Shown here: positions 11,109 through 63,523 of the stretch, in pieces
How the letters are laid out: each line of letters opens with the position of its first letter
How positions within the stretch are numbered: the stretch's first letter is position 1
Source of the DNA: Triglochin maritima
Taxonomy: Eukaryota; Streptophyta; Magnoliopsida; Alismatales; Juncaginaceae
Direction: 5' to 3'
Assembly: GCA_963682175.1 (NCBI GenBank)
Contig: OY821772.1
Coordinates: forward strand, 44,600,925-44,664,924
Length of the DNA stretch: 64,000 bases
Translations under genes and position numbers: made by a program
Notes under the pieces: model-generated
Seen by the model: only the letters and a program-made list of their open reading frames with translations
What the model was told of the DNA's origin: nothing
Database searches by the model: none

Positions 11109-11288
11109 TTTACTGTAACATCCTCAACACAGCGGAAAATTTAAAATTTTAATAACACACAATCAACAGAGGATATTACGCAAATACTGAACACGAGTGC
11201 ACCAACATATATAATATATATATACGAACATCAGAGTATTTCAAAAGTTGTGATTACATCAAAAGACTATACAAATGGAAGCAGTAAT

Positions 11289-12778
11289 TGTGGGATCGTG
11301 TGGGTCTATAGGTCCACAAACTAATCACAATTGAACCCTAATTAACTACTTGGTTGATCGATCAAAGAATTGCAGCGGAAATTAAACTAAATCAATCACA
11401 AGTAGAAAGACAATGCAAACCACAAAGACGCGTCGATTTTATAGAGGTTCGGCACCCCACCCGGGTCCTAGTCCTCTCTTGTAAGCTCCGCTCGACTCCG
11501 CGAGCTCCGCCTACGTCTTCACTATCCACTTCCCGTTTCGGGCCGAGAGAGAACGCCTTTACACCACAAGCAACGCGAACAACCCTCGCTTGCTTGAATT
11601 CTTCCTCTCACAATCCGAGAGGGACACTTCGGGCTTTCACCGAAGTCCTTGCTTCTTTTGACAACAAATGTAACTGAGTGGGATTCACTCTCTAATTGAG
11701 CACACTTTGAGTAGGATGAGTAATTGATCAAGTGTGTGAAGTTTAGGCTTAAAGAGTGTAGAATTAGAGCTTTGAGGATTTAGGTTTCTCTCTAATGAGT
11801 TGGGACAATTGGAGTTTGAGAGTTGTGTTAACAACAAGTCTTGATCCTCTATTTATAAGTTCCTAAAGATTTCTAGCCGTTTGGACAAGATTTGATTGGG
11901 TTTTGTGCAAGATACACAAGGCAGAAAATCGGGCTGCAAATCTGTCCAGAACCGGTCGACCGAAACTACTAAACCGGTCGACCGTTCACTTAATTTCAAG
12001 GAGAACGGTCGAACAAAAGAATACTCGGTCGGACAAATACGCTAGAACTTAACTCTACTTAAGTTAAACGGTCGAACCAAAGTATGGGGCGGTCGACCAT
12101 TTAGGGGATTCGGTTGAGACAAATGTGAAACAGTCGAACGAAGATGTGTCGACCGATAGCAGGGAATTTTGTTTCTGTTCAACTGGTCGACCGAATCAAG
12201 GTCATCGTTCGTCCGGTTACCAAATATATTTTGGGGTTAAGTTTGTTTTATACGTAGGAATACGACAAGGAAAACGGCCATATTAAAATCCGGGATCGGT
12301 CAACCGAAAAGGTAGGACTGGTCGACCGGTAGAGTTCGGTAAAATCACTGTGGAGAGTCTGTTATAAACTGGTCGAACTGAGAACTGGTTCGGTCGACCG
12401 GTTTCACACAGGAATTCTGGGTTTAGGTTTAAAATTATTTCCGACTAAGGTTTGGGTGATCTAATGAAGTCCAAATTATGTGAAATTTTGTGTGTGACTT
12501 CTCTAAGGAACCTAATGTGTATGTGATAAGTTTTTAGCTCTTGTATGCTCAATTTACACATGTTCCTAAGACTCAAAATAAAATCAAGATTACAAGTCTT
12601 CATATAGCTTTATTACAAATCTTGACTTGATTTCCTTCCTTCCATGAGTCTTGATCACCTGTAGAGGTTAGCACATGCAATATATATGCAATACATATGT
12701 GTGCTACTCTACATTACTTATGATTAAGATTAGGTTGATTAAATCATGAAAACAAGGATTAAGGCCAAAAAGCCAACA
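11289..12778 (-). mobile_element. Solo LTR of the gag-only retrotransposon family
   Basis: Reverse complement of the LTRs at 28826-30334 and 32663-34167, but more diverged. It runs from TGTGGGATCGTGTGGG to AAAAAGCCAACA and is flanked by a perfect 5-bp duplication GTAAT (11284-11288 and 12779-12783). The TATA-like sequence reads CTATTTATA on the + strand (11849-11857). CGGTCGACCG-type sites lie at about 11950-12405, upstream of that TATA box in LTR orientation. No internal sequence remains, as expected after recombination between two LTRs. Confidence 0.92.
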
Positions 12779-13009
12779 GTAATCACTCGACCTCAACTGA
12801 GAGAAAGCTGGATCCGGTAGCGGTGCTCCTCTCCTCGGTCACCACCCCCTAACGCCGATCATGTCCTGAAAGTTAACATGCAACAATGCAACATGCAAAA
12901 GTTGGAAACCCCGTATGTCAAACTCTAAATACATGAACTGAAAGACACCCTAGCATGAAATTCTACTAAACAAGAAAAACATCTCAACGGGCTGGGCTCC
13001 AGGGCTCTT

Positions 13010-13440
13010 TCACCCAACCACAACACACACCACAGTCACGGGGCTCCAGGTCTAATTTCAACCAACCACCGTATCACACACTCGTCGCCAAGCTGGGCTT
13101 CAGGTCTAATCTCAACCAACCGCAGCTAGCACGACACGACCAAGGGCTCCAGGTCTAATTTCAACCAACCCAAACATCTAAGGGCTTCAGGTCTATTTCA
13201 GCCAACCTGAACGCACTACATGGCTCCAGGTCTAATCTCAACCAACCACCGTACAGACTAGCTGGGCTCCAGGTCTAATTTCAACCAACCGCAGCTCTCA
13301 CACAGTCACGGGGCTCCAGGTCTCTTTCAACCAAACGCCGCAACACCACAATTCTAAGCTGAGCCTCAAGCCTATTTCAGCCAATCCCAAACTCTCGCAC
13401 CGTCACGGGGCTCCAGATCTATTTCAACCAACCACCGCAA
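13010..13440. repeat. Minisatellite inside LTR copy A
   Basis: GGGCTCCAGGTCTAATTTC followed by AACCAACC recurs about nine times with a variable spacer, giving periods of roughly 40-60 bp. The equivalent place in the other family members holds different repeat units. Confidence 0.8.
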
Positions 13441-13546: not shown

Positions 13547-14220
13547 CGGTCGACCGAACCAAAAGTCTCGGTCGACCGAATCAAGCAAATACAGGGCAAC
13601 CGCATCGACAGACACTCCATCGGTCGACCGTTTCCCACCAACCGCACTCGTTCGGTCGAACCAAAGTTAAGGGACGGTCGACCGTTTAGATGGTCAACTC
13701 CCAAGTTCAACGAACAAAACGACCATTCGGTCGAACGGCAAAGATGCCTCGTCCGACCAAAAGTCACAAGGGACAAAACCCACAACGAATTCGGTCGAAC
13801 ACCTCAGCACTCTCGGTCGACCGAATCCCACCAGGGAAAAATCCCTCACACGCACCACGAATCTGGTCGAACGCCGAGACCTCCTCGGTCGACCGAATTC
13901 CACCACAACGTTCCCCACGCTCAACACACAAGTCTGGTCGACCGAAACCATCTTTGGTCGAACCGACCACTATTCTCACTTTAAGTCACGGTCAGACGAA
14001 GTCAATGAGCGGTCGACCGTTTGGATGGTCAATCGCTCCCAACCGACTTAAGATAGTGCACACGGTCGAACGACAAAAGGGACCTGTTCGACCGAATCTC
14101 ACCAGGCTTGCCTCCTACGCACGATCGGTCGACCGCCCCAAGGGCATCGTTCGATCGATTTGAGGCAGAACCCGAATTCTCTTCACGATCGGTCGACCGT
14201 TTGCACCAACCGGTCGACCG
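13547..14220. promoter_or_regulatory. Paired CGGTCGACCG sites in LTR copy A
   Basis: About ten perfect CGGTCGACCG palindromes and several one-base variants (CGGTCGAACG, CGTCCGACC, TGGTCGACCG). Start positions pair at 13547/13569, 13653/13675, 13728/13750, 13792/13814, 13864/13886 and 13935/13955, so spacing is 20-22 bp. The role is unknown. The palindrome suggests a dimeric DNA-binding protein; this is inference. Confidence 0.6.
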
Positions 14221-25314: not shown

Positions 25315-26174
25315 TGTTGTTGTTTACCTTGAATAAGTGTTTAAAGTATACGTGCAGAAAAACAGACAATCGGTCGACCGGATGGAGTGATTCGGTCGAC
25401 CGGATGTGTGTTAATTTACCCAGCAAAAGTGTCTGTCGTTTTTCGGTCGACCGGAATCTAGGATTCAGTCGACCGGACACACGGTTTGGAGCTGGGCAAA
25501 AGTTACTGTCGATTTTCGGTCGACCGGAACCTTGGATTCGGTCGACCGGAAACGTTCGAGGAGCTGGGAGAAAAGTGTCTGTTGAAATTCGGTCGACCGG
25601 AACTTAAGTGTACGGTCGACCGATTATGCACTCGCGCAAGCCAGAAAAGTTACTGTCGATTTTCGGTCGAACGAGACTCCAATTTCGGTCGGACGTTGGA
25701 ATACAGTTATTGGATCGGTCGACCGATGCACCCGATCGGTCGACCGTTTGGACCCAGTTCTGTCCACGTTTTGCACATTACTCCACCCGATTTTGGTGCA
25801 ACTTATACTTGTTTTGGCCTCATATATAAAGGCAATTTCGTCCCCTTTGTATTATCAGTTAATTCTATTGTCCACTTTTATGTTCTTGAGAGAAAAGAGA
25901 GAGAGAGCATCCTTGTGATTCGGTAGGAGAGATTTTGAGCCGAGTTCTTCGTCGGTTCGTTCGCATCTCCTGTAAGCATCTCTTGTAATACGTTTCTCTA
26001 TATTGGATTTGAGTTGTGTCGTCCGTGGTTTTTCCCGCATTGGGTTTCCACGTTAAATCTTGCGTGTTTGTGTGGTTTGAATCTTGGATTTGCGTTTTGT
26101 TCTCAAGTTTAGCCAATTGGATTCGTGTTTTTTTTGTTCCGCTGCGTATTTGGGATTGGTTTTAATTCTCAACA
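25315..26174 (+). repeat. 5' LTR of the copia element
   Basis: 860 bp, TG...CA. TATATAA at 25823-25829 probably marks the promoter, so transcription should start near 25855. The U3 part upstream holds the CGGTCGACCG array. A 22-bp segment holding one site near 25732 is absent from the 3' LTR. Confidence 0.93.
25371..25745. promoter_or_regulatory. 73-bp-period array of paired CGGTCGACCG sites
   Basis: Nine perfect CGGTCGACCG palindromes plus variants. Pair starts are 25371/25393, 25444/25466, 25517/25539, 25590/25613, 25664/25686 and 25716/25736. Within pairs the spacing is 20-23 bp, and successive pairs up to 25664 are 73-74 bp apart. The array ends about 80 bp upstream of the TATA box, in the enhancer position of U3. 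The equivalent array in the 3' LTR begins at 35624. Confidence 0.7.
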
Positions 26175-26176
26175 AC

Positions 26177-26188
26177 TGGTATCAGAGC
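26177..26188 (+). other. Primer binding site, initiator tRNA-Met
   Basis: TGGTATCAGAGC two bases after the 5' LTR is complementary to the 3' end of plant initiator tRNA-Met, the usual primer of copia elements. Confidence 0.95.
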
Positions 26189-26237
26189 ATTTGGGTCCGA
26201 ATTTGGGGATTATTTCTTCAACTTTTGTCAAATACTT

Positions 26238-28825
26238 ATGGCGAATAATTGGAAAATTGAGAAGTTGAGCCGAGATGTTAATTTCGGCTTGTGGCAAGTC
26301 AAGATGCACGCAATTCTGGTGCAGCAAGAGGTGGAGGACGTTCTTGAGGGCATGGATAAGTTGCCAAAAGAAATGTCCGATCAAGATAGGCAAAAGCTTG
26401 ATCGAAAGGCGATGTCAACCATCAAGTTGTCGTTGTCCGACGAAGTTCTGAGAGAAGTGTTGAAGGAGAAGACGGCTACAAGTATGTGGAAGAAATTAGA
26501 AGAGGTCTACATGAAGAAGTCACTTGCTAGCCGGATTATCTTGAAGAAGTTGTTCCTATTCAAGATGAAGTCGGGTATCTCCCTTCAGCAACACTTGGAT
26601 GATTTCAATGCAATCATCATGGACTTGGAGAAGGTTGAAGCAAGGTTTTCTGATGAGGATCAGGCGATCCTTTTACTTTGCTCGTTGAGTTCTTCATATG
26701 ATCACTTTGTGGAGACGATGATGTACAGCAGGACCGACATCTCTCTTGCGGATGTCAAAAACGCACTCTCCTCCAAATTTGATATGGAGAAGAGGTCTGA
26801 TGGTTCTGATTCGAGCAAAAGTGAGGCACTTGTTGCTCGTGGTAAGGGGAAATAGAGGACTTTCTCAAAGAACACCTCTAAGACCAAGTCGAAGGACAAA
26901 GATATTATTTGTCATTACTGCAAGAAGAAGGGTCACAAGATATCAGAATGTTTTAAGCTACAGAACAGAGAGAAGCAAAGGGGTTCTAGTAGCGGTGATC
27001 AGTCAGGTTTGAATGTCGCGGAGTCCGATTCTGATTTTGTGTTGGCAGCTACAGGTTCTTCTGAAGCTTCCGACGGTTGGGTGATTGATACGGGCAGTAC
27101 ATTCCACTTAACTCCGAATAAACAATGGTTTTCATCTTATGAAACAATGTCAGGTGGAATGGTTGTGATGGGCAATGGTGACAGGTGCGAGGTTGCAGGA
27201 ATTGGTTCTGTCAGATTGAGGACCCATGATGGCCTAGTCAAGATTATATCGGATGTGCGACATGTTCCGAAGGCGAGCAAGAATCTGATTTTAGTAGGTA
27301 GCCTGACTGCAAAGGGCTACAAATTCAGTGGTGAGGATGACTGCATATCCATCACCAAAGGATCACTTATTCTGATGAAAGGGAAGAAGCTTGGGCCCGG
27401 TAAGCTTTATATGCTCAAAGGAGAAACTGTTGTGGGTGACGCAACTGTAGCGTCATCGTTGTATGGTGAGGAGAATGCCCAACTTTGGCATATGAGGTTG
27501 GGGCACATGAGCGAGAAAGGCATGGCGGTGTTGAACAAACGTGGTTTGTTTGGAAGTCAGAAAATCGGCAGTCTGGACTTCTGTGAATTTTGTGTTTTTG
27601 GGAAGCAGAATAGGGTTAGCTTCTCAGCAGCTAAGCACACCACCAAGGCTACTTTAGATTATGTCCACTCTGATTTATGGGGACCTTCTCAGGTTCCATC
27701 AAAAGGTGGAGCTCGCTACATGCTCACATTTATTGATGATTTCTCCAGGAAGACTTGGGTTTATATTCTGAAACAGAAGAGCGATGTGTTTCAGAATTTT
27801 CAACACTAGAAGGTTATGATTGAGAATCAAACAGGAAAGAAAATTAAGGTTCTAAGGACGGATAATGGTTTGGAGTTTTGTTCCTCAGAATTTAACGATT
27901 TCTGCAAGGATGAAGGAATCATGAGACACCGAACCGTACGTCACACACCACAACAGAACGGAGTAGCGGAACGTTTGAATCGAACTATCTTAGAGAGAGC
28001 TCGATGTATGCTTCTGAATGCGGACCTGACTAAGGATTTTTGGGCAGAAGCAGTGTGTACCGCTTGTTATTTAGTGAACCGTTCGCCTCACACCGTTTTG
28101 GATATGAGAACACCGGAAGAAGTTTGGACAGGTGGAGCTTCAGATTTGTCCAAGTTGAGAGTCTTCGGTTGTCCAGCGTACGCACATGTAGATCAAGGAA
28201 AGTTGAATGCTCGGTCGTTGAAGTGTATATTCCTTGGCTACGATTTGGGTGTGAAGGGTTATCGTCTGTGGTGCAAGGAATCTCAGAAGCTCATGGTTGA
28301 AAGAAATGCTGTCTTTAATGAGCTTGTTATGTTACCTTCCAGGAAAGACACTGTTATTTCTACTCCCGTGTCAAGTGGGACTCCAGTTCAGGTGGAGCCA
28401 CCGGTAGTGACTGCTGATGAGGATACCGGTGTGACACAACGAGAGAGTTCGAAATCTGAGGAAGATGAAGAGTATTTGTTGGCAAGGGACAGAGAGAGGC
28501 GGCTGACCAAGAAACCCCGTAGATATGCTGAATCAGTCCTTGCATATGCTCTTAGTGCAGCTGAAGATATTGGAGCCTCTGGTGAGCCGAGCAAGTATTC
28601 AGAGGCAATTTCGGCACCCGATTCAGCTGCTTGGGTGGGTGCAATGAATGAAGAGATGGAGTCTCTTCATAAGAACCAAACTTGGAAGTTGGTAGAACTT
28701 CCAAAAGGAAAAAGGGCCGTTAGCTGCAAATGGGTCTTCAAAAAGAAAATCGAGGGTATATCAGATGTGAGGTACAAAGCTCGATTGGTTACTCGTGGTT
28801 TTAGTCAGGTGGAGGGTGTGGATTA
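26238..28825 (+). pseudogene. copia gag-protease-integrase-RT (5' part, with two stops)
   Basis: One reading frame starts MANNWKIEKLSRDVNF and contains a UBN2-type Gag, the zinc knuckle CHYCKKKGHKISEC, the protease motif WVIDTGSTFHLT, an integrase zinc site (HMRLGHMSEKG...CEFCVFGK) and core (HSDLWGP, RTDNGLEF, HTPQQNGVAE), then the start of RT (WKLVELPKGKRAVSCKWVFK). In-frame TAG codons at 26853-26855 and 27807-27809 break it. The first lies between Gag and its zinc knuckle, not at a normal gag-pol junction, so both look like decay. The frame is interrupted at GVDY by the nested element and continues in phase at 34173. Confidence 0.92.
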
Positions 28826-30334
28826 TGTTGGCTTTTTGGCCTTAATCTATGTTTTGATGATTTAATTAACCTAATCTTAATTATGATGATGTAGAGTAGC
28901 ACACATATTGCATTGCATGTATATTGTATTGTGCTAACCTCTACAGGTGATCAAGACTCAAGAAGGATGGAAATCAAGTCAAGATTTGTAATAAAGCTAA
29001 ATGAAGACTTGTAATCTTGATTTTATTTTGAGTCTTAGGAACATGTGTAAATTGAGCATACAAGAGTTAAAAACCAATCACATACACAATAGGTTCCCTA
29101 TAGAAGTCACACACGAAATTTCACATTATTTGGACTTCATTAGATCACCCAAACCTTAGTCGGAAATCACTTATAAACTTAAACCCAGATTTCATGTGTG
29201 AACCGGTCGACCGAACCAGTTCTCAGTTCGACCGGTTTATAACAGACTCTCCACAGTGATTTTACCGAACTCTACCGGTCGACCGGTTCTACCTTTTCGG
29301 TCGACCGATCCCGGATTTTAATATGGCCGTTTTTCTTGTCGTATTCCTATAACGGTCGTATTCGTATAAAACAAACTTAACCCCAAAATACATTCGGTAA
29401 TCGGTCGAACGACGACCTTGATTCGGTCGACCGGTTGAACATATTTTCAGAAACCAAATTCCCTGCTATCGGTCGACACATTTCTCGTTCGACCGATTGA
29501 CCTTTGTCTCAACCGAATCCCCTTATCGGTCGACCGCCCCATACTTTGGTTCGACCGATTCACTTAAGTAGAGTTAAGTTCTAGCTCGTTTGTCCGACCG
29601 AATATTCTTTTGTTCGACCGTTCTCTTTGAAATCATGTTAACGGTCGACCGGTGTACTAGTTTCGGTCGACCGGTTCTGGACAGATTTGCAGCCCGATTT
29701 TCTGCTTTGTGTATCTTGCACAAAACCCAATCAAATCTATCCCCAACGACTAGAATACCTTAGGAGCTTATAAATAGAGGATCAAGACTTGTTGTTAACA
29801 CAACTCTCGAACTCCAATTGTCCCAATGCATTAGAGAGAAACCTCAATCCTCAAAGCTCACAATTCTACACTCTTTAAGCCTAAACTTCACACATTTGAT
29901 CATATACTCATCCTACTCAAAGTGTGCTCAATTAGAGAGTGAATCCCACTCAGTTACAAGAGTTGTCAAAAGAAGCAAGGACTTCGGTGAAAGCCCGAAG
30001 TGTCCCTCTCGGATTGTGAGAGGAAGAATTCAAGCAAGCGAGGGTTGTTCGCGTTGCTTGTGGTGTAAAGGCGTTCTCTCCCGGCCCGGAACGGGGAGTG
30101 GTTAGTGAAGACGTAGGCGGAGCTCGCGGAGTCGAGCGGAGTCTACAAGAGAGGACTAGGACCCGGGTGGGGTGCCGAACCTCTATAAAAACGCCGAGTC
30201 TCTTTGTGGTTTGCATTTTCTGTTAATTTCCCTACTTGTTTTTAAATTTGTTTCCGCTGCATTTATTGTTTGATTAGTTAGGGATTAGCTTAATAGTGAT
30301 TAGTGGACCCATAACCCACACGATCCTTCCTACA
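28826..30334 (+). repeat. 5' LTR of the gag-only element
   Basis: 1509 bp. TATAAATAG at 29769-29777 is a good TATA box. The U3 region upstream (29204-29673) contains the CGGTCGACCG cluster. A 95-codon frame at 29818-30105 has a counterpart in the other LTR but shows no protein features. Confidence 0.93.
29204..29673. promoter_or_regulatory. Paired CGGTCGACCG sites in U3 of the gag-only element
   Basis: Seven perfect palindromes plus variants such as CGGTCGAACG, TGTCCGACCG and TGTTCGACCG. Measured pairs: 29204/29225, 29276/29298, 29402/29424, 29527/29548, 29591/29611 and 29642/29664. One looser pair is at 29470/29486. The cluster ends about 95 bp upstream of the TATA box. Confidence 0.65.
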
Positions 30335-30336
30335 TT

Positions 30337-30348
30337 TGGTATCAGAGC
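30337..30348 (+). other. Primer binding site, initiator tRNA-Met (nested element)
   Basis: TGGTATCAGAGC two bases after the 5' LTR, identical to the site in the host copia element. Confidence 0.95.
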
Positions 30349-30388
30349 CTTGTTAGCTAAATTTCATTACTTTACCGTAATTTTTAGC

Positions 30389-32029
30389 ATGACTTCAACA
30401 TCTAATCACTTAGAGGGTTTATGCACCACAAGGCCTCCTTTGCTTAATGGGTCAAATTATGATTATTGGAAAAATAGAATGAAAATCTTTTTAATATCAA
30501 ATGACCTTAAGTATTGGAAGTTTATTCAAAATCCATACATACCCCCAAATGAAGATGATTTAGATTCTCTATCTAGGGCTCAAATGAAAGAAATTGAAAT
30601 GAATTCAAAAATTATGAATATTCTTTATTGTGGCCTTAATGAGGGAGAATACAATAGAATTAGGGGATGTGAAAGTGCAAATGAAATATGGCATAGGTTA
30701 CAAATGCATCATGAGGGTGATAGCAAAACCAAAGAAACTAGGATAAGTCTCCTCATGCATAAATATGAAATATTTTCTATGCAAATCGGTGAGAACATAA
30801 GCGACATGAACACTCGCTTCACCGATATCACTAACTCTCTTTTGATTCTTGGAAGAAGGATAAATGAAGGAGAGATGACTCGAAAATTCCTCCGGTCATT
30901 GAGCAACGATTGGGAAGACAAGGTCGTGGCAATTGAAGAATCGCACGATCTTTCAAAATTGAAGATGGAGGAACTCATTGGAAATCTCATGGCCTATGAG
31001 CTCCAATTGAGTCATCGAAGAGAGAAGGAAGCTTCAAAGAAAAACTCCGTGGTGGCATTGCATGCAAATTTTGATGAGCCAAGGAGGGTGGAAGAAGAGG
31101 ACATTGAGGTCCTTGCCCAAGACTTCTTCAAATACCTCAAGAGAGATAAGAATGAAAGAAGAGGTAGAAGAAGTGAAAAGAGAGAAAAAGAAAAAGAGAG
31201 AGAGGAGAGCGAAAATGAGAGAAGACAAGGGGTAAAGAAAAATGAGAGAAGGGAGAGAAGAAGAGAAAAGGAGAGGAGTAAGAGAAAAGAGAAGAGGTTG
31301 GAAGCTCACAAGGCCACTTGGGACGATACATCGTCGTCATCGTCCAAATCAACCGCACCTTCATCAACAAAGGAATATGCGCATATGTGCTACATGGCAA
31401 TTCAAGATGAAGGAAGTGAGGTATCTTCTAACTCTTACACCACTAGAAGCAATTCATGTTCAAATAAATCATATTCTAGTGCTAGCTCTAATTCTAATGC
31501 TAATGATGAATCATATACACATGATGAGCTTCAAAATGCATTTCATGATTTAGTTAAACAATATGAGATCATTTGTGAAAAGAACAAAAATGCTAGAAAA
31601 ACTATAAATGATCTCAAATGCCAAATTGAATTAATCATGAATGAAAAGAATGAGGTGATTGCTAGACTTGAATCAAATGAATCATCACTTGCTAGTCTAA
31701 GTAAAACACCCATTGTTGATGAACATGTAGATCTTAAAGTTTCAAATATGCAATTAAGAAAAGATCTAGAAATGTTCACTAAAGGAACAAAAATGCTTGA
31801 TATGCTTTTAGGTAGTCAAAGACAATCCTTAGCTAAACATGGTTTAGGATACTATGTTCAATTAAAAAACCATGTATCTCATACTACATTAAATGGCAAG
31901 CATTTATTTGTTAAGTCTACTTCCTCAAGTGTGTGGGCTCCCAAAACCAAAATGGTGTGGATTCCCAAAGCTAACACTCAAGGACCCAAAGTTGTTTGGG
32001 TACCTAAATCTACTCTTGTAGGAGCTTGA
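30389..32029 (+). CDS. Gag-like protein of the gag-only element
   Basis: 546 residues from MTSTSNHLEG, the first Met outside the LTR, to TGA. The N-terminal half is a copia-type Gag (PPLLNGSNYDYWKNRMKIFL, then a UBN2 domain with EIWHRLQMHHEGDSKTKETR and FLRSLSNDWEDKV). A highly charged Lys/Arg/Glu segment (about 270-345) follows, then a Ser-rich linker, a coiled-coil-like stretch, and a tail with repeated VWxPK motifs as found before the protease in SIRE-like polyproteins. The CCHC zinc knuckle expected in that region is missing. The frame is open and undamaged. It presumably packages the element's RNA using enzymes supplied by a relative. Confidence 0.85.
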   Translation: MTSTSNHLEGLCTTRPPLLNGSNYDYWKNRMKIFLISNDLKYWKFIQNPYIPPNEDDLDSLSRAQMKEIEMNSKIMNILYCGLNEGEYNRIRGCESANEIWHRLQMHHEGDSKTKETRISLLMHKYEIFSMQIGENISDMNTRFTDITNSLLILGRRINEGEMTRKFLRSLSNDWEDKVVAIEESHDLSKLKMEELIGNLMAYELQLSHRREKEASKKNSVVALHANFDEPRRVEEEDIEVLAQDFFKYLKRDKNERRGRRSEKREKEKEREESENERRQGVKKNERRERRREKERSKRKEKRLEAHKATWDDTSSSSSKSTAPSSTKEYAHMCYMAIQDEGSEVSSNSYTTRSNSCSNKSYSSASSNSNANDESYTHDELQNAFHDLVKQYEIICEKNKNARKTINDLKCQIELIMNEKNEVIARLESNESSLASLSKTPIVDEHVDLKVSNMQLRKDLEMFTKGTKMLDMLLGSQRQSLAKHGLGYYVQLKNHVSHTTLNGKHLFVKSTSSSVWAPKTKMVWIPKANTQGPKVVWVPKSTLVGA

Positions 32030-32662
32030 GGAGGAGATTGGTGGTGACCGGGTGAGCTCAAGAGTCAAATTCAAATCCGGTTGCATCACCAAATGAGATT
32101 GGAGCTAAATTCGAATTCAACATTGGTATAAATGTCTATCCTTGAAATTTCTGAATATTTAGCTCTAATCTAGTTTATATGCTTAATTGTCATATCTTTA
32201 GAATTTTAATTCATTGCAAATCATATACCCTATTCATTGCAAATCATTTATCACATCCATTGATTCTAAATGTCAAATTTTAAATGGATGTTATAATAAG
32301 GCTTAAGTTGAAACTTAAATGAACTTAACTTGAATCATACTCATTGTTTCCATTTAGCCTTATTGATAGGGGGAGCTTAAATGTTATATCTTTTATTAGA
32401 GTAATGAAGTGCAAAATTTAGGGGGAGCAACTTCATTACAAGACATCCAAATTCTATGCTTAAAGTCTTAAATAATTATTATTTTTGATGGATGTCAAAG
32501 GGGGAGAGATAATTAAGGGGGTAACTTGGAATTTGGCATAAAATTGATCAAAAACTATGCACATCCATAGGGGGAGCATTAATATGCATAGTTTACATAT
32601 ACAAATTCCATGTATTTAGATAGAATTAAGATATAGGTTGCCATCATCAAAAAGGGGGAGAT
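32030..32662 (+). other. Non-coding region with multiple polypurine tracts
   Basis: Between the gag stop and the 3' LTR, GGGGGAG-type tracts occur near 32369, 32421, 32498, 32515 and 32570. The last, AAAAAGGGGGAGA at 32649-32661, abuts the 3' LTR and is the likely plus-strand primer. Confidence 0.75.
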
Positions 32663-34167: not shown

Positions 34168-34172
34168 GATTA

Positions 34173-40140: not shown

Positions 40141-40159
40141 GGCGGTCTCTTGTAACAAA

Positions 40160-40162
<3 letters not shown>

Positions 40163-40202
<40 letters not shown>

Positions 40203-40400: not shown

Positions 40401-40436
<36 letters not shown>

Positions 40437-41112: not shown

Positions 41113-41117
<5 letters not shown>

Positions 41118-43849
41118 ATATTACAATGAGACCAAGTCTCGTTATAAAAAAATAAGACCCCATATTTTCCTCCCTTAGATCTGGATCCAACGGTTGGTTC
41201 ATCCAATATTCAATTTATACAACCAAAGGGTAATATGGTAATCACACAGACACACCCCACCTCATCGTCTTCTTCCCATCACATCTTTCTCTCTCTAAAC
41301 CGTTGGTTTTCTTCCAAACACTTCTACGGTTTGTTTGTTTGTTTGTGTGTTTCCACCTCTGATCTCCACACAAGATCCGCCAACTTCATCTTCATTTTTT
41401 CTGTTTTACTCTTGCCACCGAAAGGTGAGATTTTTATGCTTTTTTTCGTTTTTGTTGTGGTTTTTGTGCTTTTTGGGAGAAATGTGTATTTTTCTGCTGT
41501 TTTGGTACTTTTGCCTCTGTTTGAGTGATTTTCTTCGTTAATGCGTGTTTTTCTTTTGTTTTTGGAAAGATTTGAACTTTGTCTTTTTCTGGTTGGTTTG
41601 AGAACTTGGTTTTGGTTCTGGATTCTGTTAGGATTTGTGGTTTTGGTTCAAGTCTTTGTTTGTAGTTTTGGTTTGTGTTGGAGGAAATGTGGGCTTGTGT
41701 GGATAAATCTATGATTTTTTATTTGCATTTTCTGTTTTTTTGGTTTATGAACATAGCATTTTTGTTTATACTTTTGTTAGATTGGATTTTGCAACTTGTA
41801 AGGTTATAGATGTTTTGGAATCATAATATAAGCCAAATTTCTCATTTTTCTTGTCACATTATGTGTTTAAGTCCTTGTGGCAGAGTAGTCTAGATTTTAG
41901 TAGTTTTTTGGAGAGAAAAAAATTAACTTTGGGATGGCACATCGATAGTTTTTCCCTTGGATGTCATGAAAGATGTCAACAAGACGTTGGTTTGAATTCA
42001 GTTTTGAGCTTCTCCTCAGCCACACCCTCAAGGAACACATAAATCTACATAGAAACCAACAGTTTCTTCATACATGTTACAACAATTGCAACTCAAGTTT
42101 CTTGCATTGGGTCTTACTTCTGACTCTTAAAAACTTTTGTGGTGGTTACTGCATGTTTACAGATTTTCTTATCAAGTGTAGCTTTTGTTCTTATAAATAC
42201 TATGCTCTAGAAGTAGAAAATAATGATAAGTAAAATACATAATATAATTGAAAGGTTTACGTGGTAATAAAAGATGATAGTGGAGGAGAACTAATCCAAC
42301 CACTTCCACCACCACCACAACCTCCTCATGATCTTCCAAACTTGCAGGTTTGCGTGCATTTTCCAACTTGATTAATGTTTATATATCTGTTGGTTTCGTT
42401 AGTTTATTCTCATGTGTTACTTAAACTTTTAATGGTTTTGTTATGCTTGCATTCTTGTTATTTTGTTGGATGCTTGCATTCTGATTATTTTGTTGTATTT
42501 TCTTGAAAACAGGAGCATGTTGATCCACAAGTGCCACCACCAAACAATGATCATCCAAACCTGTAGGTTTGCATTTTCTAAATTTATTGTGTATTATATT
42601 TCATTAGTTTATATTCTTGGTTTGTTTTAAAATTTTACCTTCCTAGTTATATTTTTCTTGCCTTTTAAGTTTACCTACTTATTTTGTGTAGAAATGTTTC
42701 ACGAAAGAAGTCGTTGAGAAGCTTGCTTCTTGTATACACAAAAGAGAGAGAGAGAAGAATTTCTCATGAGTTTTTGTGTTTTTAATAGCTTAATTTAATA
42801 TTCTAGTAGCTTTCTATGTAGCAACTTAAAATGGGATTAGCTAATTTGGGGGTGTCATGTTGCTTATCAAAGTTGAGTAGCAATTGCTATCATGGTTTCA
42901 CTACACTAGTGTTTTATGTTTTCAACACCGTGATTGTCACACCTTTTAAGTGAAGTTTAGGCTTCAAAATGTGGTCTTTTGTTTTAGAGAGATGATGAAT
43001 AGCATTATGTGAAGTGAATTCATATCATATAAATAAATTTCCCTTCCCATGTTATGGTACTTCTTAGTTCGTATGTTGCGTTGTTTATTTATATTGGACT
43101 GTGTAGGTTCAATACACAATATTATAAGTTTAATACATAACTATATTATTTCAATACACAATTGAACTTGAGTAGTTATGTATTCCACCGAACATGAAGT
43201 GTAATTCCCAAAGATTTCTACAATTGCATTAAATATTCTGTATTTCTGCATCTCAACTTATTAAATATGTATATTTGCATCCCAGTTTCTGAACTTATGT
43301 ATTCTAAATATTTGAACAATCTCATGTGGTTGTCTACAAGTCATAAGTTAACTTATTGTGTATGATATTAGATTACATGTCTAGATCCTTAGTAGTTGTT
43401 GTTTAATGTTGTCTTATTATATAAAGTAATATGCAGTAGGTCTTCAATTCCGAAATTAAATTATTCACTTCCAAGAATAAACTAATATTCTTTGGTGCCT
43501 AATTTACAATGATATTTTGTCAGATCATCAACAAGGAGATTCATGCATCCCAAGAGTTTGAACTAAGACTCATATTACAGGTTGATTATTCTTGACAGTG
43601 TTCTGGAGTTTATGCTTTGTTTAGACTGCAGGAGTTTCTGCCTTCTTTGGACATCTGAAGTTTTTGCCTTTGTTGTAAGGCGTTTTGCCTTCTGTGAAAG
43701 TAGTAATGATGTCTACTGGAATTCCTTGTTAGGACTGTCGTGGTGGTTGTGGAAGTACTGATGATATATATCTGACTTAATTGTCGGAAGTTGTGGAAGT
43801 AGTGATGATATCTGAGTTAAGTAGGATTATAGTAGATATCATCTTTTTT

Positions 43850-49437: not shown

Positions 49438-50015
49438 TAGGGGTGTAAGCGGGGCGGGGCGGGGCGGGTTTTTGGTCCACCGCTACCCGCCCCGCATAAG
49501 TTAACTGGGTATGCGGGACGGGGCGGGGTGGGTCAAAAATAAAAAAACCGTTACCCGCCCCGCATAAGGTTGGACTAGGTGAGGCGGGGCGGGTTATGCG
49601 GGTTTGGCGGGTTTTTTAATTTTTTTTTGATTTTTTCTAAGAAAAATAAAAGAACATCAAAACTTGAAAAATTTTAATTACTCATTGTATTTTTTGGGAA
49701 ATTGAATGTGTGTTGAGTGAAAAACTAGACATTTGGTTAGTGTTGAATAATGATTTGGTAAGGTGGGTTAATGATTATGAGTAAAATGGAAACATTAAAA
49801 TGATTTTGGTATATAAAAAATTAATAATATATTTGATTAAGCGGGTTGCGGGTTATGCGGGGCGGGTTGCAAGACAACCGCAACCCGCCCCGCTTATTAG
49901 GCGGGTTATGCGGGTGGCGGGTTAGCGGGTTGGCGGGTAACATTTTTTTGTCCGCTACCCGCATTAGGCGGGGCGGGGCGGGTTGCGGGTAAAATATTAC
50001 CCATTTACAGCCCTA
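49438..50015. mobile_element. hAT-type MITE with GCGGGGCGGGG subterminal repeats
   Basis: Inverted ends TAGGGGTGTAA and TTACAGCCCTA. A perfect 8-bp duplication GTCCACGC flanks it (49430-49437 and 50016-50023), diagnostic of hAT transposition. Both subterminal regions carry many GCGGG/CCCGC repeats in opposite orientation around an AT-rich core. No coding capacity. Confidence 0.92.
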
Positions 50016-52475: not shown

Positions 52476-54635
52476 TGTTAGATCCCTAACCTAGGGTTAG
52501 TGGGCTAATGATGTTTAAGGAGGGGGTTTGCATAGGGAAGGGGTGTGTGAACAGTAAGGTCGTGGGAGGTATGGTGTAGGGTGATGGGTGGAGTGTTGGT
52601 GAGGTGAGAGGGTGGGTTTTTAAGCTAACCTCTCTCCCTCTCTCTCATTTTTGGATCTCACTCACTCACTCTTCCCCTTTTCCCTTGTGCGGCGAGCAGC
52701 AGAGGACGCGAAGGCTCCGGAGTGAGGAGGTCGGCGCTGGGAAGAGGTCGCGCGTACGGAGGCGCGAGCGAGCTCCGGCGGTTCGTCGTCGTTGGTTGAG
52801 GTATGTCGACTTGTTAGTGTGGTTTGTTGATCACTCTCGTATGGGTGAGGCGTTGGTCGGTCGGGAGAGGTCGGAGACCTCTCCGGCGACGTGTTTCTTC
52901 GTAAAACCTCGGCTGGCGCGAGGTTGAAGACGACCAACGGTCGACCGGTCCCTTCGGGTGGTCGACCGAGTGTACTGTTTTACCCGACTTTAACCTTCAC
53001 CGGTCAGACGATGCCTTGTGGCGGTCGACCGGTAGTGCATATTTGCTGGTGAGTTGGGACTGCCTGTTGTGTTTCGGTCGACCGGGGTCTTGTGTTCGGT
53101 CGACCGGAACTTAAGTGTACTGGATTTTATTGCATGCTTGTTCGACCGATTGTTGGTTGCGTTCGGCCGTTTATGACATAGAATTGCTAGGTTAACCCTG
53201 TAGGATTTCGGTCGACCGGGACCCCTGAGTTGGTCGACCGATAGATCCGATTTTGATGTTGACCTGACTCCGAATTTTGACCTCGTTCGGTCGACCGGTT
53301 TTAGACCTTTGTTCGACCGTTGGGGGGTTCTGTTTTGAGCGCAACGGTAGACCGTTTTAGGAGTACGGTCGACCGATTCCTTTCTGGAACCGGTCGACCG
53401 AATCACCTCTTCCGGTCGATCGTTTGGGCCCACGACAGAATTCCTGGTTCCCTTTTTGAACGCCAACTTTGTCCACGGAAACCCGTGTCCTCGCCTTGTG
53501 CGTGAGCCGGGAGGTGACGGTGGGTGCGTGATGCATGCCTGCCCAGGGACCGCCGTTGGGAAGAGTGTGGGTGTTCGGGACGCGTCACCTCCGTGTATGG
53601 ACCGTGACTTGAGATGGATTGATTGGGCACTTTGTAGTATAGCAGACCTGAGGGATCGCGGATCCCAGTGTTGATGTTTGTGCGGGCACGCAACTGGCGT
53701 TGGGTGAGGTGACTACCGGCCCACGGGCTACGGAGGTCGCTGCCCTGCTTTTATAGCGGCACAGTTGGTGTTTGCGGCTCGAGGAGCCTGATGACCTGGC
53801 AGACTTCGGTCTGGATACGTCTGATGTTGTGCCGGACGTTTGTGTTGGATCCGTCCGATGCTGTGCCGGACATTGTGATAGACCACCGAGGCTGTTCCGG
53901 TGATGCTTCCGAGGTTGTGCCGACGATGATGATTGTTGGGCCGAGGCTGTTCCGGCTATGTTGTTTTCCTCGGCTGGGCACCTACCGAGATGTTGTTGTT
54001 ATACCTTCCGGACGACGGCCCCGTTGGTCCCTGTGGCTCCGACCACTGAGATTTGCAGATCTGTATTCTATCAGCGCGCAGGCGTGACAGAGGCTCCCTG
54101 CCGAACCCTTGAGTAGTGTAGCTGCGTGTGGGGGGTGCGATGTCGCGTGCTGTAAGGCTGCATGTGCCTGCAGTAGGTCTCCTCGGGAGACTCGTTGTTG
54201 ACTGTCGGACTGATGTCCTGTTTTACCCTTTGGGGGAACTGTTTTCCATTTCTGTCGATGACATGACATGATACTAGTATTATAGGTTCATTGTGTAATG
54301 CATGCATATATAGGTGAGTTGGCATACGGGGTTTCCTTCTGTAAACTCAGACATTGTTGTTGCATCTTTTTCAGGACCGCAGTAGGTCCAGTGGGGTGGT
54401 GATCGGCGGGCGCGCGCATTTGGAGTCGGATCCTCTAGTCGGACCACTGAGGTCAACATGATTACGTTTATCTTCCTTTGTCGTTTTGTTGTAATCATGT
54501 ATTCATTTTGGCAAACTCTGATGTATTCTGGTGCACCACTATTTGTTTATGAGAAGTAACAGTCTCACCTTTGATTATTGTGTTGTTTGTCTTAATTATG
54601 AATTTTTAAATTTTCCGTTGTATCGGGATGTTACA
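52476..54635 (-). mobile_element. Solo LTR of the TGTAAC family, copy E
   Basis: 2160 bp in reverse orientation: the minus strand starts TGTAACATCCCGATACAACG and ends GGATCTAACA. A perfect 5-bp duplication TATAT flanks it (52471-52475 and 54636-54640). It contains CGGTCGACCG sites at 52938-53410 and a repeat of GAGGCTGTTCCGG/GTTGTGCCGGA units at 53820-53960. Open frames inside follow these repeats and are not genes. Confidence 0.85.
52938..53410. promoter_or_regulatory. CGGTCGACCG-type sites in solo LTR copy E
   Basis: The first pair starts at 52938/52959 (21 bp). Several perfect palindromes and half-mutated sites follow to about 53410, many arranged as close pairs. Confidence 0.55.
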
Positions 54636-57783: not shown

Positions 57784-59032
57784 TCTTGGGGTGTTATGGT
57801 AAGTCGTGTTTTTGTTTTTTGCTTTCTTATAACCCAACGAAAGGGAGTGAGTTCGGGAGTGTGTTCGTTCATGGTTTTCGTGAATACGGGGTTATGATAA
57901 TTAAAGCATGGGTTATGATTGCGATGGGAATATTAAGAGGGAGATCGTGTTGTTTAATGTTCATCCGAATCTGTGTTGGAGTGTTAATTAGAAGACCACG
58001 TGGTATGCAGTGGTTTGTTTAGCATTGGTGCTAGATTAGAGGACAGGATGTGGTCGGTGGTCCATTATTTGAAGAGCATGTATGTCTGGTTTTGTTATTT
58101 CTTCTACCAAGATAGGATCTTAAGTAATCACGTGTGAGGGAGGTGTTGTATTATGTAGGTTGGCGTTGTGCCGTCGTCCCAAGGAATCGAGTGCGACGAC
58201 TGTTGGAAAACTGTCGTGGAGTGGTGTGTTGAATCCTCTCTCGTGAGACTGCAGTTTTTTAATTGTTTTATTATAACCTTTTTTCTCGTGATAAGATCTT
58301 GTTTGTTTGTACTTGTAAGATTGGAGGAGTTTATTATTAAAAAAATGAAGAAAATTATAGGAGTTCAAAGAAAAACATAAAGAGCCACATATGTCAAATA
58401 AATAAGGTTCAACTCCTTCAAACTACAAAATCAGATAAAGATTCAAAGAGGACATCAAAGTGAAGCACTGAAGCCAATGAGGTAGACCAAAACAGGTAGC
58501 CTTGTCTTTGCAGTTTGTATTGGGGAAGATGTAGTGGCATGTCAAGAAATGAGATATTAGCTAGTGAATATGATATGCAAGGTTGGAAGATGCTTTTCCA
58601 AACAAGAACTTCTTAATGCTAACCAGTTGTTTTACTTTCTTTAAACAACGGTACCGTACTATTTATTAACATTGATGTGTTACTTTATGATAGCAAAACC
58701 GTGTTGGCTCCATTTGAGACAATGCAATGAAGAAGTGGGGTTAATGGTTGCTGCGAAATTGAATGAAAAATATAGCAACTACTTTGAAGAGTCCTTATAC
58801 ACGGACGCGGGCGTCACGGACGCGCCTTACGTGGACGTGTTGAGTCAGCGTCCAATCAGCAAAATTTCTCTTCACGTGCTTTGGTCTTCTTAAAAACGCC
58901 GGTTCTTTAGGTTGAACGATTCTTTTCCCAATACACAGATAGTGCAGACCCTAGGACAGCGTGCAGACCCTTTATTCGTGCAGAGTCCAGACTTATCATA
59001 ATAAAATATTATTTTTAACTTTTAGGTTGGAT
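57784..59032. other. Protease gene upstream region, no further gene seen
   Basis: Presumed promoter and 5' leader of the minus-strand protease gene followed by AT-rich DNA. Small open frames (for example 58672-58893) are not recognisable. Confidence 0.4.
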
Positions 59033-59652
59033 CAACTTAATCCAAACAGACACACAACATATTCCGAACAGACAGTCTTCTTATTCCGAACAGACGCACA
59101 ACTTAATCCGAACAGACACACAACATATTCCAAACAGACACACAACATATTCCGAACAGACACACAACTTAATCCGAACAGACACACAACTTAATCCGAA
59201 CAGACACACAACTTAATCCGAACAGACACACAACATATTCCGAACAGACAGACTACTTATTCCGAACAGACATACTTCTTATTCCGAACAGAAAGACTTC
59301 TTATTCCGAACAGACATACTTCTTATTCCGAACAGAAAGACTTCTTATTCCGAACAGACAGACTTCTTATTCCGAACAGACACACAACATAATCCGAACA
59401 GACAAACAACATATTCCGAACAGACAGACTTCTTATTCCGAACAGACGCACAACTTAATCCGAACAGACACACAACATATTCCGAACAGACAGACTTCTT
59501 ATTCCGAACAGACGCACAACTTAATCCAAACAGACAGACTTCTTATTCCGAACAGAAAGACTTCTTATTCCGAACAGACAGACTTCTTATTCCGAACAGA
59601 CACACAACATATTCCGAACAGACTGACTTCTTATTCCGAACAGACATACAAC
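59033..59652. repeat. 22-bp minisatellite, about 28 copies
   Basis: Tandem units of the form TATTCCGAACAGACAGACTTCT alternate with TAATCCGAACAGACACACAACT-type units. CCGAACAGAC is nearly invariant. The unit length of 22 bp is not a multiple of three, so the open frames seen here are not meaningful. Confidence 0.93.
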
Positions 59653-59691
59653 TGCTGTACATGAAGAAAATGAAGAAGAATGTGATCATTC

Positions 59692-60025
59692 CTACATTCT
59701 TAAGGATGACTTTGGTCTTGTTTGTTGTATATGTGGAATTATACGCAAAAGCATAGAACTTTCTGATTGAACTTTTAACAGTAGAATATCACGCCAAAAT
59801 CCTCGGAAGCTTTGACACCATTGCATCTCGTTCCAGCACATTAACACCTGACCCAGAGGTAGCAAACAAACGGGTGTGATGCCTTTTCTTAACACAAAAA
59901 CCACAAGAATCGGCATAAGCAACGTAAAATGTTTGGGCTTCTTCGAAAGAGGAGAAAAACATCCCCTCCTTAGGAACGTTTGTCGGCTGCTCCACTTGGA
60001 AAGACACATGAACGATTTCCATCAA
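59692..60025 (-). pseudogene. FAR1 DNA-binding domain fragment
   Basis: The minus strand encodes VPKEGMFFSSFEEAQTFYVA then YADSCGFCVKKRHHTR, the start of a FAR1-type zinc-binding domain (P-x-x-GM-x-F-x-S-x-EEA-x-x-FY pattern). The frame stops after LPRILA at 59789 and no DDE or SWIM region follows; the minisatellite lies just beyond. It is either a broken FAR1-related gene or a remnant of a MULE. The upstream part (60026-60240) shows no further domain. Confidence 0.6.
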
Positions 60026-60480: not shown

Positions 60481-62381
60481 TAACGAACGTACCAAAAACA
60501 ACGAAAAATTTAAACAATATAAAAGACCGTCAACGGTTAACACCAGACATGTCACGAGACAACAAGAAAAAAATAATATATAAATAAATAAGATATATAT
60601 CCACGTGGAAGTCAAAATGCACCTGAGTCAACTGTGATTACAACCGAAATAAATACAACTAGGTAATCACTACCTCAACAAAAAGGTAATAAGAGAAGAC
60701 ATGATCAGATCCCGAGGGCACCCTCCTCGGTCACTACATCGACTCTAATGCTGCTCGCTACCTAAAATGCAAACAATTAAAACATGCTTGAGTTCCCTGC
60801 TGGAACCCCGTATGCCAAACCTCCTAAAATACAAAATGGAATTAAAGACAATGCAATGCAATGCACATGATCATCCACCTCGGGTCCACAATAATACCCC
60901 TCTCCGCCTCCGCGGTACTGAACCACTCCTGCCGCCACGAGGGTCAAGTCAGTCCACCGCTGCCTCACAAGGGTCCGTCGGCACTACTGCTCCCCAAGAG
61001 CCGCAAAAAGGAACCCTGGCACAATGCCGCCACCCCAGGAGCGAGTCAGCACGCTGAATGCACAACTCGGGCCAGACAACAGCCGCTGCTCCCCCAAGAG
61101 CCGCCAAACGCGCACCCTGCCGGAACATCGTCGGTCTACCGACAAACCCCAGCAAACAGCCCAAGGTTTACGGCAATCATCTCTCACACCCCGCTCGATA
61201 TGAGAGGCCAACAATAATACGCCCTCGTCGAAGGTGAAATCTGTCGCTCCCAAGGCCGGTAATCGACCGTCGCCTCAGAGCCGGTAGTCGACCAATACTC
61301 GACGGCTCGCGTGTGGATAAATCCACCAACCTGCGGCAGATCGGTCGACCGCTACAAGCACACCGGTCAACCAGTCTTCCACACAGTACTCGGTACTGTA
61401 CAAACAGTGCATTCGGTCGAACCACGCCAACCGAATTACCGACCAATTGGTCGAACAAAAGTCATCTAGCGGTCGACCGTTTGGATGGTCTACGCTATAC
61501 AATATTTATAATATATATATATCTGACCGGTCGAACCAAGGGTCCGTTCAACCGATATCAGGGATTCTCAATATTTTGCCTAAGTCATATTCGGTCGACC
61601 GGAACTGAGATACAGTTCGACCGAACACAGGCACTCTACTGCTTATTTAAAATGCTCAGTCGGTCAACCAAAAGTTAAAGAGCGGTCGATCGTTTTGATG
61701 GTCAAAGCTCCCAACCGACTTAGCATCGAATAGATCGGTCGAACCAGGTTAAGGATGTTCGACCGTTTAATAAGTCAAAATCCCCAACCGACCCATTCTC
61801 ATTGTTTCGGTCGACCGGCGAAGTGGATCCGTTCGACCGATGACAGCATTAAACCCTTTTTCCCGCAGAAATCTGGCATAACGGTCGACCGTCCTCAGAC
61901 ATCGTTCGACCGTTTGCGGGTGCAAATCAATATAATAATAGAATCGGTCGACTGCCCACAGGCACCGGTCGACCGATTGTCGTCTTCAACCTCTGAATGG
62001 GTTGCAATTCGACGGGGAATTCGACACCAACGTCGATCCCCAACACCCACAAAGCTTATGTGAGTTATAATGAAGACTTGGCATACCTTTTTGAAGTTCG
62101 TGGAAGCTTCTCAAACTTTGGCAAGCCTAACCCAACTCTCCACCTTCACTTCTTCTCCTTCTCTCCTTCTTCTTCTCCTCCCAGATTGTCTCTCTCACTC
62201 TCTGCTTGCTCAACTGAGGAAAAATGTTTTAGATAAAACCTTACCCTCCTATTTATAACCAAAACCTAAAAATCTAATTCTTATCAATTACCTCCACCTC
62301 TCTCTCTACTGTAGCATGCTTAATTAAGGTTAATTAGGTTTAATTTAGTTTAATTAGGGTGTTTAGATCAAGATTATTACA
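60481..62381 (+). mobile_element. LTR of the TGTAAC family, copy C
   Basis: From about 60490 it matches copy D closely (AATTTAAACAATA, AAAGACCGTCAACGG, CCACGTGGAAGTCAAA). Its first bases are altered, so the start is approximate. It ends AGATTATTACA at 62381. Inside are Gly/Ala/Pro-like GC-rich repeats (60890-61190), CGGTCGACCG sites at 61342-61980 and TATTTATA at 62249-62256. The TATA-like sequence downstream of the sites repeats the layout seen in the other two families. Confidence 0.6.
61342..61980. promoter_or_regulatory. CGGTCGACCG-type sites in LTR copy C
   Basis: The first pair starts at 61342/61364 (22 bp, second site CGGTCAACCA). Several more perfect and variant sites follow up to a last perfect site near 61968. 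Confidence 0.55.
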
Positions 62382-62738
62382 GTTAGGCATCGTAAAGAAA
62401 GGAGAGTAAGCATAGCTGATGTCTTGCATTATTCGAAGGCAGTGATTACTGAGGAATTATGAGAGTGGACAGTTGTAGAAACTTTGAACGAAGTAAAAAC
62501 CTAACTCCACGTCCGTCTTCTGCCATTAACAGTTTCTTCTACTGGTCATATGCGATTTATATGGCATGTGAATACCTCAGCTTCAATTGCTGAACAACCT
62601 TGAGCTGGAGACATTTGATTTTGATGATATATAATATTTGCTTTGATTCCTTATGCCAAAAATACATGATAGTGGTATTTTGACTTCCAATTAACAATGG
62701 CTTATCAATCACCACAAATATCGCCAATCAAGGAAAAC
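62382..62738. other. Spacer between LTR copies C and D
   Basis: 357 bp of AT-rich sequence, too short for retroelement genes. Nothing recognised. Confidence 0.4.
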
Positions 62739-63523
62739 TGTAACCTACCCGAAAACAGCGGAAAATTTAAACAATAATAAAGACCGTCAACGGTCAACAC
62801 AGGGCACGTCACGGGAAAACAAACCAACATATATATAAAATATATAAGATACAGACCCACGTGGAAGTCAAACTATATAAATGAGTCAACTGTGGTTACA
62901 ACAAAAGTGAATATACATGTAATCACTACCTCAACAAAAGAAGATATAAAAGAGAACACAATCTGATCCTGGGGGCACTCTCCTCGGTCACCACCTGACT
63001 CTAATGCTACTCGCTACCTGAAATGAAAACAAACAAACATGCCTGAGTTCCGTGCAGGAACCCCGTATACCAAGCCTCCTAAAAATATAAAAAGGAATTA
63101 AAGACAATGCAATACAATGCACATGATCATCCGCCTCGGGCCCACAATAATGCCCTCACCGCCTCCGCGGCACTGAACCACTCCTGTCACTAGGGTCAAG
63201 TCAATCCACCGCTGCCTCACAAGGGTCAGTCGACACCACTGCTCCCCAAAAGTGCAGGAAGGAACCCCTGGTACACGCCGCCACCCCAGGAGCGAGTCAG
63301 CCCGCCGAATACACAACTCGGGTCAGACGACAGCCGCTGCTCCCCCAAGAGCCGCCAAGCGCGAACCCTGCCGGAACATCCTCGGCCTACCGCTAAACCC
63401 TCGCAAACTGTCCAAGGTTTACGACACACATCCCTCACACCCCGCTCGGTAAGAGAGGCAACAGTAGTACAATAATACGCCTTCGTCGAAGGTGAAATCC
63501 GTAGCTCTCAAAGTCGGTAATTG
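62739..63523 (+). mobile_element. LTR of the TGTAAC family, copy D, truncated
   Basis: Starts TGTAACCTACCCGAAAACAG and is very similar to copy C, including the GC-rich repeat at 63130-63370. It stops just where the CGGTCGACCG region would begin, apparently cut by the element starting at about 63524. Confidence 0.65.

Follow-up and report, generated by a model that had tools for sequence, protein, structure and literature searches.

Why should a single ten-base palindrome recur in the long terminal repeats (LTRs) of retrotransposon families that otherwise show little likeness? The question is raised by a 64,000-nucleotide stretch of Triglochin maritima DNA (contig OY821772.1 of assembly GCA_963682175.1, positions 44,600,925–44,664,924; hereafter the window), in which a sequence-only reading had noticed paired copies of the palindrome CGGTCGACCG in three LTR families and had proposed that they form one regulatory module. 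We counted 63 exact copies of this 10-nt palindrome, compared to a mean of 0.02 and a maximum of 1 in 100 dinucleotide shuffles. It was the commonest palindromic 10-mer of the window; once two TA/AT runs were passed, the runners-up had 3 copies.

The carriers were the three families proposed at the outset, namely the LTRs of a gag-only element together with a solo copy (family A), of a copia element (family B) and of the TGTAAC family (family C). Exact copies numbered 7 and 6 in the 5′ and 3′ LTRs of element A, 3 in the solo A LTR, 9 in each LTR of element B, and 10, 5, 8 and 6 in the family C LTRs C1, C2, C3 and C4. All 63 copies were thus in LTRs, which bears out the earlier statement that dozens of copies occur there where less than one is expected by chance. 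In the 49.6 kb counted as non-LTR DNA we found 9 sites with 8/10 matches and none with 9/10 or 10/10 (nine LTR stretches were scored as LTR; another family C LTR, C5, and a small left part of C1 were counted as outside), so the motif is not equally abundant outside LTRs.

Paired sites and helical phasing

The spacing of the sites was examined within the LTRs. Among gaps of at most 130 bp between successive exact copies, 14 of 48 measured 20–23 bp, and 41 paired modules were recognized when degenerate partners were included, in agreement with the spacing of about 22 bp first proposed. The two halves of a site were not retained equally. Only one 7-base half was intact in 47 sites. Of these, 27 had a partner 18–25 bp away, and 24 of the 27 kept the outer half (binomial P 2.5e-5). 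The outer–inner counts were 3–0 in A, 1–0 in B, 4–0 in C1, 6–1 in C2, 3–1 in C3, 6–0 in C4 and 1–1 in the solo A LTR. The commonest inner variant of the 41 modules was G to T, seen in the 3′ site of 16; C to A was seen in the 5′ site of 8. Neither substitution is of the deamination type.

Furthermore, the sites were phased with the DNA helix. When gaps between neighbouring sites were counted as far as 130 bp (12 in A, 5 distinct values in B and 69 in C), 66 of 86 deviated by no more than 1.5 bp from a whole number of 10.5-bp turns. The phasing score reached its maximum at 10.5 bp over a scan of 9–13 bp. As a control, we scored 20 other 4-mers, each with 30 gaps or more, in these LTRs after masking; they gave 0.09 or less, compared to 0.61 for the sites. 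Phasing gave P 0.005 in A alone after a scan of five periods, and P 5e-5 in each of C1 and C2. Without the 22-bp pairs, C1 and C2 still gave P 0.0006 and 5e-5, respectively; once these pairs are removed, the phasing signal is carried by C1 and C2.

From these regularities we infer protein binding and transcriptional activation. With moderate confidence we read the arrays as enhancer-type cis-regulatory modules, with their sites on the same helix face, for a dimeric and probably host-encoded DNA-binding protein. The unit would be the pair CGGTCGA[C/A]C, about 12 bp, G[G/T]TCGACCG, set two helical turns apart, with outer half-sites kept and inner ones relaxed. A sequence-specific, probably dimeric protein would occupy adjacent sites from the same side of the helix, and further units would follow at nearly whole numbers of turns, a pattern clearest in C1 and C2. 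The factor would probably be host-encoded because the site is common to elements of different lineages. The order of array and TATA was the same in A and B, with the TATA 79–96 bp past the array end, and the array would be placed there like a promoter-proximal enhancer in U3.

For family C the arrangement may be another one. GGTATG donor-like words stand ahead of the array in C1 (LTR position 571), C2 (407), C3 (93 and 325) and C4 (295), those of C1, C2 and C4 being mutually aligned, and TTTCAGG/TTTTAGG acceptor-like words follow the array in C1, C3 and C4, not in C2; in C3 and C4 they are found at other places as well. The strand of the family C LTRs was assigned from these splice-like words. 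They weakly suggest that the start site of family C may precede the array, which would then be in a leader intron. A TATA-like TATAAATAG was found at LTR position 125 of C4, ahead of the array.

Several observations weigh against the enhancer reading. No partner at 18–25 bp was found for 20 of the 47 half-only sites, and in 12 of 41 modules the 3′ site began with T instead of C, a change that may be due to deamination. The 41 modules were chosen by near-intact outer halves, so that outer conservation among them is partly built in. Without the 22-bp pairs the phasing was weak in C3 (P 0.27), C4 (P 0.42) and A (P 0.055–0.084), and that of B gave P 0.02 with tandem copies counted and P 0.16 on n=2 distinct gaps. 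Adjacent gaps scored higher than at 10.5 bp at 7.3 bp in B and at 7.1 bp in C3. The pooled P values are too small, because B contains a 73-bp tandem, the LTRs of family C are paralogous to one another and the solo LTR duplicates that of element A. The place of the family C array relative to the promoter is uncertain: a TATA-like match was absent from C1 and C2, the only one in C3 came after the array, and only C4 had one before it. Finally, no single binding factor was found in the published work on this motif (PMC2829016, discussed below).

The published Sirevirus motif and its carriers

CGGTCGACCG itself is not new; it is a published Sirevirus motif. Bousios et al. 2010 (PMC2829016) described conserved palindromic motifs, termed repeated motifs (RMs), in 13 Sireviruses, with 8–32 per element in LTR and linker and a CGG-CCG core in all but one. 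According to the same paper these RMs lie mostly in the upper LTR, are clustered upstream of the TATA and mark CpG-island borders, and the grapevine (‘Vitis’) consensus is CGGTCGACCG, found 10 times in the 3′ LTR; in rice, Osr8 (CGGTCAGACCG) and Osr10 (CGGTCTGACCG) each have one inserted base relative to it. The arrays described here are like these in the identical grapevine consensus, the CGG-CCG dyads, the CpG-island borders and the TATA shortly after the arrays of A and B. They differ in that they also occur in a non-Sirevirus copia element and in a third LTR family, whereas the RM is called Sirevirus-specific in PMC2829016 and reported there as absent from classic elements, and in that two-turn pairing, outer-half bias and phasing are not among the features described in the accessible text of that paper. 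Among the titles and abstract openings covered, few of them from subscription papers, we found neither RMs in non-Sirevirus LTR elements nor pairing or phasing. The exact 10-mer turned up in 34 papers; among the 20 whose titles were listed, one deals with retrotransposons.

We compared elements A and B with the Sirevirus hallmarks listed in PMC2829016, namely multiple AGGGGGAG polypurine tracts, a terminal polypurine tract followed by AT/TG, and the junction CA/ATTGG/TATCAGAGC; Sirevirus genomes are given there as 8.5–14.4 kb (average 10.55, smallest 8.45) and classic copia elements as 5.6 kb on average. Element A (28826–34167, 5.3 kb, + strand) is nested in element B and has the target-site duplication (TSD) GATTA on both sides. 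Its 5′ LTR (28826–30334, 1509 nt) carries an array of 13 sites matching at 8/10 or better, 7 of them exact, at LTR positions 379–848 and a TATA at LTR position 944; its 3′ LTR (32663–34167) has the 6 exact sites and is 99.7% identical to the 5′ LTR. An open frame from stop to stop (30278–32029, +) encodes a copia-type gag (Retrotran_gag_2, PF14223), and the domain scan found gag and no pol domain in it. Five Sirevirus polypurine octamers AGGGGGAG are clustered in the linker ahead of the 3′ LTR (32368–32660, +), the last of them leading from 32653 into the attachment site as AGGGGGAG-AT-TGTTGG. The 5′ junction reads CA/TTTGG/TATCAGAGC, one base from the Sirevirus form, and the palindromic CGG-CCG sites are mostly in the upper LTR with the TATA soon after. 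Because element A encodes gag without a complete gag-pol and is 5.3 kb long, compared to the 8.5–14.4 kb of Sireviruses, it would be at most a non-autonomous Sirevirus relative.

The solo A LTR (11289–12778, −; TSD GTAAT) is inserted in C1 and retains 3 exact sites. The counts bearing on decay of its sites are small: non-CpG differences amounted to 1/60 in the sites compared to 91/1260 outside, and CpG differences to 6/70 compared to 6/76. In the LTR of element A, CpG observed/expected climbed to 2.2 in the array and dropped to 0–0.35 to the left and right of it, a difference in favour of the enhancer reading; towards the LTR 3′ end it returned to about 1. Lineage-wide CG methylation dips are described in PMC12844716, in the accessible part of which no palindromes are reported.

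Element B (25315–36403, +; TSD AATAG) is about 5.7 kb long without the nested element A and has copia gag, integrase and reverse transcriptase (RT) domains. The array occupies positions 57–432 of its 5′ LTR (25315–26174), with the TATA TATATAAAGG at LTR position 511, and the 3′ LTR (35568–36403) is 95.5% identical. Gag and the first part of pol (gag, integrase and the start of RT; 26166–28865, +) form three open stretches in one frame with two stops between them, and a domain search placed the remainder of RT beyond element A (34141–35487, +). With two stops in the gag-pol frame and element A splitting it, this copy of element B looks dead.

Several features set element B apart from Sireviruses. 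It lacks multiple AGGGGGAG polypurine tracts, and its terminal tract is AGGTGGAG. This tract is followed by AT/TG as in Sireviruses (AGGTGGAG-AT-TGTTG), which is not diagnostic alone since classic elements vary here, and the 5′ junction CA/ACTGG/TATCAGAGC is, like that of element A, one base off the Sirevirus form, at a position where G is known. The element is also smaller than the smallest Sirevirus. Its RT was 59–71% identical to 118 of the 120 plant matches listed, with P0053 at 55% and P0103 at 56%. Identity to P0011, whose gag resembles that of A, was 36% (256 aa) and 40% (92 aa); P0011 serves as an indirect yardstick in place of a named Sirevirus RT. The gags of A and B gave no blastp match with each other. 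Element B thus mostly does not fit the Sireviruses, and we would class it as a non-Sirevirus copia element. Since it carries the identical motif, the CGGTCGACCG RM appears, on this evidence, not to be confined to Sireviruses.

Family C is known here from solo and truncated LTRs alone, and no internal region of it was recognized within the window. C3 (52476–54635, +) is a solo LTR with 8 exact sites at 52938–53400 and is of the LTR-retrotransposon kind, with TG...CA ends and a 5-bp TSD (TATAT-TGTTAG...GTTACA-TATAT). C1 (11114–14893, −) is split by the solo A LTR, has its 10 exact sites at 13547–14220 and shows a possible TSD, TTTAC/TTTTC, matching at 4/5 bases. C2 (48400–50870, −; 5 exact sites) has approximate ends, C4 (60487–62381, −; 6 exact sites at 61342–61975) an approximate left end, and C5 (62739–63524, −) is the 3′ part of a truncated LTR with no exact site; the ends of C2, C4 and C5 are uncertain or cut. 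The span of 11114 to 63523 given by the sequence-only reading agrees with these limits, as it starts at one end of C1 and stops beside the cut end of C5. The TGT...ACA ends of family C recall those of Ty3/gypsy chromoviruses, in which gag-pol with a chromodomain integrase adjoins the LTR.

Origin and function of the arrays

How did three families come to share the module? The arrays may have been inherited or exchanged, by recombination, by template switching between co-packaged RNAs or from a common copia ancestor, and not acquired convergently. This origin would fit any function, and we hold it to be a serious possibility a little short of even. Part of the sharing would be ordinary inheritance in any case, given that the motif is a published Sirevirus motif and element A is Sirevirus-like. 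The families had been called unrelated; that holds in so far as their LTRs show little other likeness, and does not hold for A and B, whose gag domains assign both to Ty1/copia. The regulatory proposal fares similarly: one module with fixed internal geometry, compatible with a DNA-binding protein, was found in all three families, and inheritance accounts for part of its distribution.

The LTRs of the three families were then aligned. No blastn match joined A, B and C LTRs at E 1e-8 (rows of low complexity at 40100–41200 and 59000–59700 were omitted from the table). With the palindrome sites masked, 22 Smith–Waterman comparisons were evaluated against shuffles. B with C3 scored 34 against a null maximum of 33, and B with C1 on the opposite strand scored 31, solely via a GAGA run. 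The A–B and A–C2b scores (same strand) were reached by 3 of 100 shuffles and the remaining scores by 9 or more. Full-length homology of the three LTRs, which would have overturned the proposal of one captured module, is rejected by these results.

The earlier statement that the rest of the LTRs lacks visible similarity stands for the masked LTRs in general, which are not clearly alike, and needs amending for one stretch common to B and C3. The 26-mer TTCGGTCGACCGGAACTTAAGTGTAC (25588–25613, +) lies in the B 5′ LTR and recurs at 35840 in the B 3′ LTR and at 53095 in C3. It includes 14 non-palindromic bases beside a site, a length reached by 0 of 400 column-permuted sets (largest, 10). The match hints at exchange between B and C3, short of proof. 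It contains CTTAAG, which C1 has at a similar place, so the match may be partly local to C. No unexpected flank common to A and B (P 0.87) or to A and C (P 0.45) was found, and this, together with the reported lack of RMs in classic copia elements (Bousios et al. 2010, PMC2829016), argues against inheritance or exchange; the copia membership of A and B and the presence of the 22-bp pair and half-site bias in all three families argue for it. Flank counts were limited to +1 to +5. Just beyond the palindrome, at +1 and +2, R then W was preferred in B (P 0.008 and 4e-4) and in A (P 0.053 and 0.016), and family C had its clear bias, to T, in the second of these positions (P 1e-5). These preferences speak for the enhancer reading. 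Wider flank profiles, out to +14, gave P 2e-4 in each of the three comparisons between families and were set aside because the outer columns can hold a neighbouring site.

A broader proposal is that one ancient angiosperm factor reads CGGTCGAMC-N12-GKTCGACCG, and that phased arrays were repeatedly gained or exchanged by LTR lineages (from grapevine Sireviruses to a classic copia and another LTR family of a probably aquatic monocot) as a common activation or anti-silencing code. We put this forward tentatively, as rather doubtful. Heat-response elements in Brassicaceae COPIA LTRs (PMC5059998) are comparable in that several LTR families have repeatedly acquired a site for one and the same host factor, and differ in that the factor, heat shock factor, is known and the accessible text describes no long arrays. 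Should a single factor indeed act on several lineages, the host would have one point of control over the retrotransposon activity of all of them. The RM in other LTR lineages, the composite unit and the phasing together turn a conserved palindrome into a concrete probe, a two-site 32-bp unit for a dimeric protein.

It is improbable, in our estimate, that the palindromes are kept for secondary structure, as RNA hairpins or cruciforms acting as, or suffering as, small-RNA hotspots. Four arrays folded strongly (z −5.65 to −7.19), equal folding being seen in 0/100, 0/100, 0/100 and 0/20 shuffles, and the outer halves of a pair are able to form a stem; however, any dense inverted repeats fold strongly. 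The inner halves did not co-vary (40 of 41 modules, the exception carrying another base; odds ratio 0.43, two-sided Fisher P 0.44, and P 0.92 for compensation), and hairpins do not require 10.5-bp phasing. Secondary structure as the selected trait was rejected, since folding was strong and compensation inside pairs was absent. The maize Sirevirus palindromes (a 2016 study, via PMC5311732 and PMC10760457) are similar in forming clusters in the LTR regulatory region, over which an excess of small RNAs is described, and differ in sequence (CACCGGACNNNGTCCGGTG) and in the emphasis on folding and small RNAs. According to PMC10760457, the maize palindrome also occurs in Helitrons, crossing superfamilies.

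The sequence-only reading had also suggested an anti-silencing factor comparable to VANC proteins. Such a factor, whether encoded within one element family or captured, would bind the clustered motif and demethylate all carriers. We consider this quite unlikely. VANC targets of VANDAL elements (PMC5735166) are like the present arrays in being short motifs clustered in non-coding DNA, for VANC21 including introns, and in that one protein acts on more than one element family, VANC6 motifs being found in the unrelated AT9TSD1. The arrays likewise keep CpG, and those of family C may be intronic. VANDAL elements are, on the other hand, DNA transposons with a known binder encoded by the transposable element, and VANC21 motifs are non-palindromic and in one orientation. 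The Pfam scan of open frames gave no candidate protein, with gag only in A and gag-pol domains only in B. In addition, all six CpG differences within the sites of the solo A LTR were C>T or G>A, as methylated DNA would give.

A by-product of mutation, in which a functionless chance palindrome was multiplied by tandem duplication, is very improbable and is disfavoured. A 73-bp tandem repeat makes up part of the B array, and the repeat finder detected a 73-bp repeat in part of C2 as well, but it found no comparable unit over the A, C1, C3 and C4 arrays. The identical 10-mer occurs in three families, and the outer-half bias, like the phasing, belongs to these sites in particular.

Other features of the locus

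Some further matches to the motifs were set aside. GGTCGACC occurs in 12 papers that mention retrotransposons, and in one of these (PMC6712407) it proved to be a primer sequence. Public viral contigs contained two close sites in 12 stretches, the maize motif in 6 and the Sirevirus polypurine tract in 3; these were taken as chance because 20 of 21 had a G+C of at least 0.5 and none matched the B RT or the A gag by tblastn.

In the window, the Rfam and tRNA scans returned nothing. A subtilase was closest, among 120 listed matches, to those of Zostera marina and Colocasia (77%); on this one gene the host would be a plant, a monocot close to the Alismatales. Within the C2 array lies a hAT-type miniature inverted-repeat transposable element (49438–50015) with ends TAGGGGTGTA...TACAGCCCTA and the 8-bp duplication GTCCACGC, which splits the LTR. 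Beyond the arrays, the short tandem repeats of family C differ between copies, with 45-bp units in C2 (48687–48835) and 43/54-bp units in C1 (12994–13334). At 63524 C5 breaks off and other sequence begins (63525–64000). A tandem array of about 4 copies of a 233-bp unit, with TA runs, occupies 40185–41090, and a 22-bp tandem repeat of about 28 copies (85% matches) occupies 59033–59653, where two + strand frames are open through most of its length.

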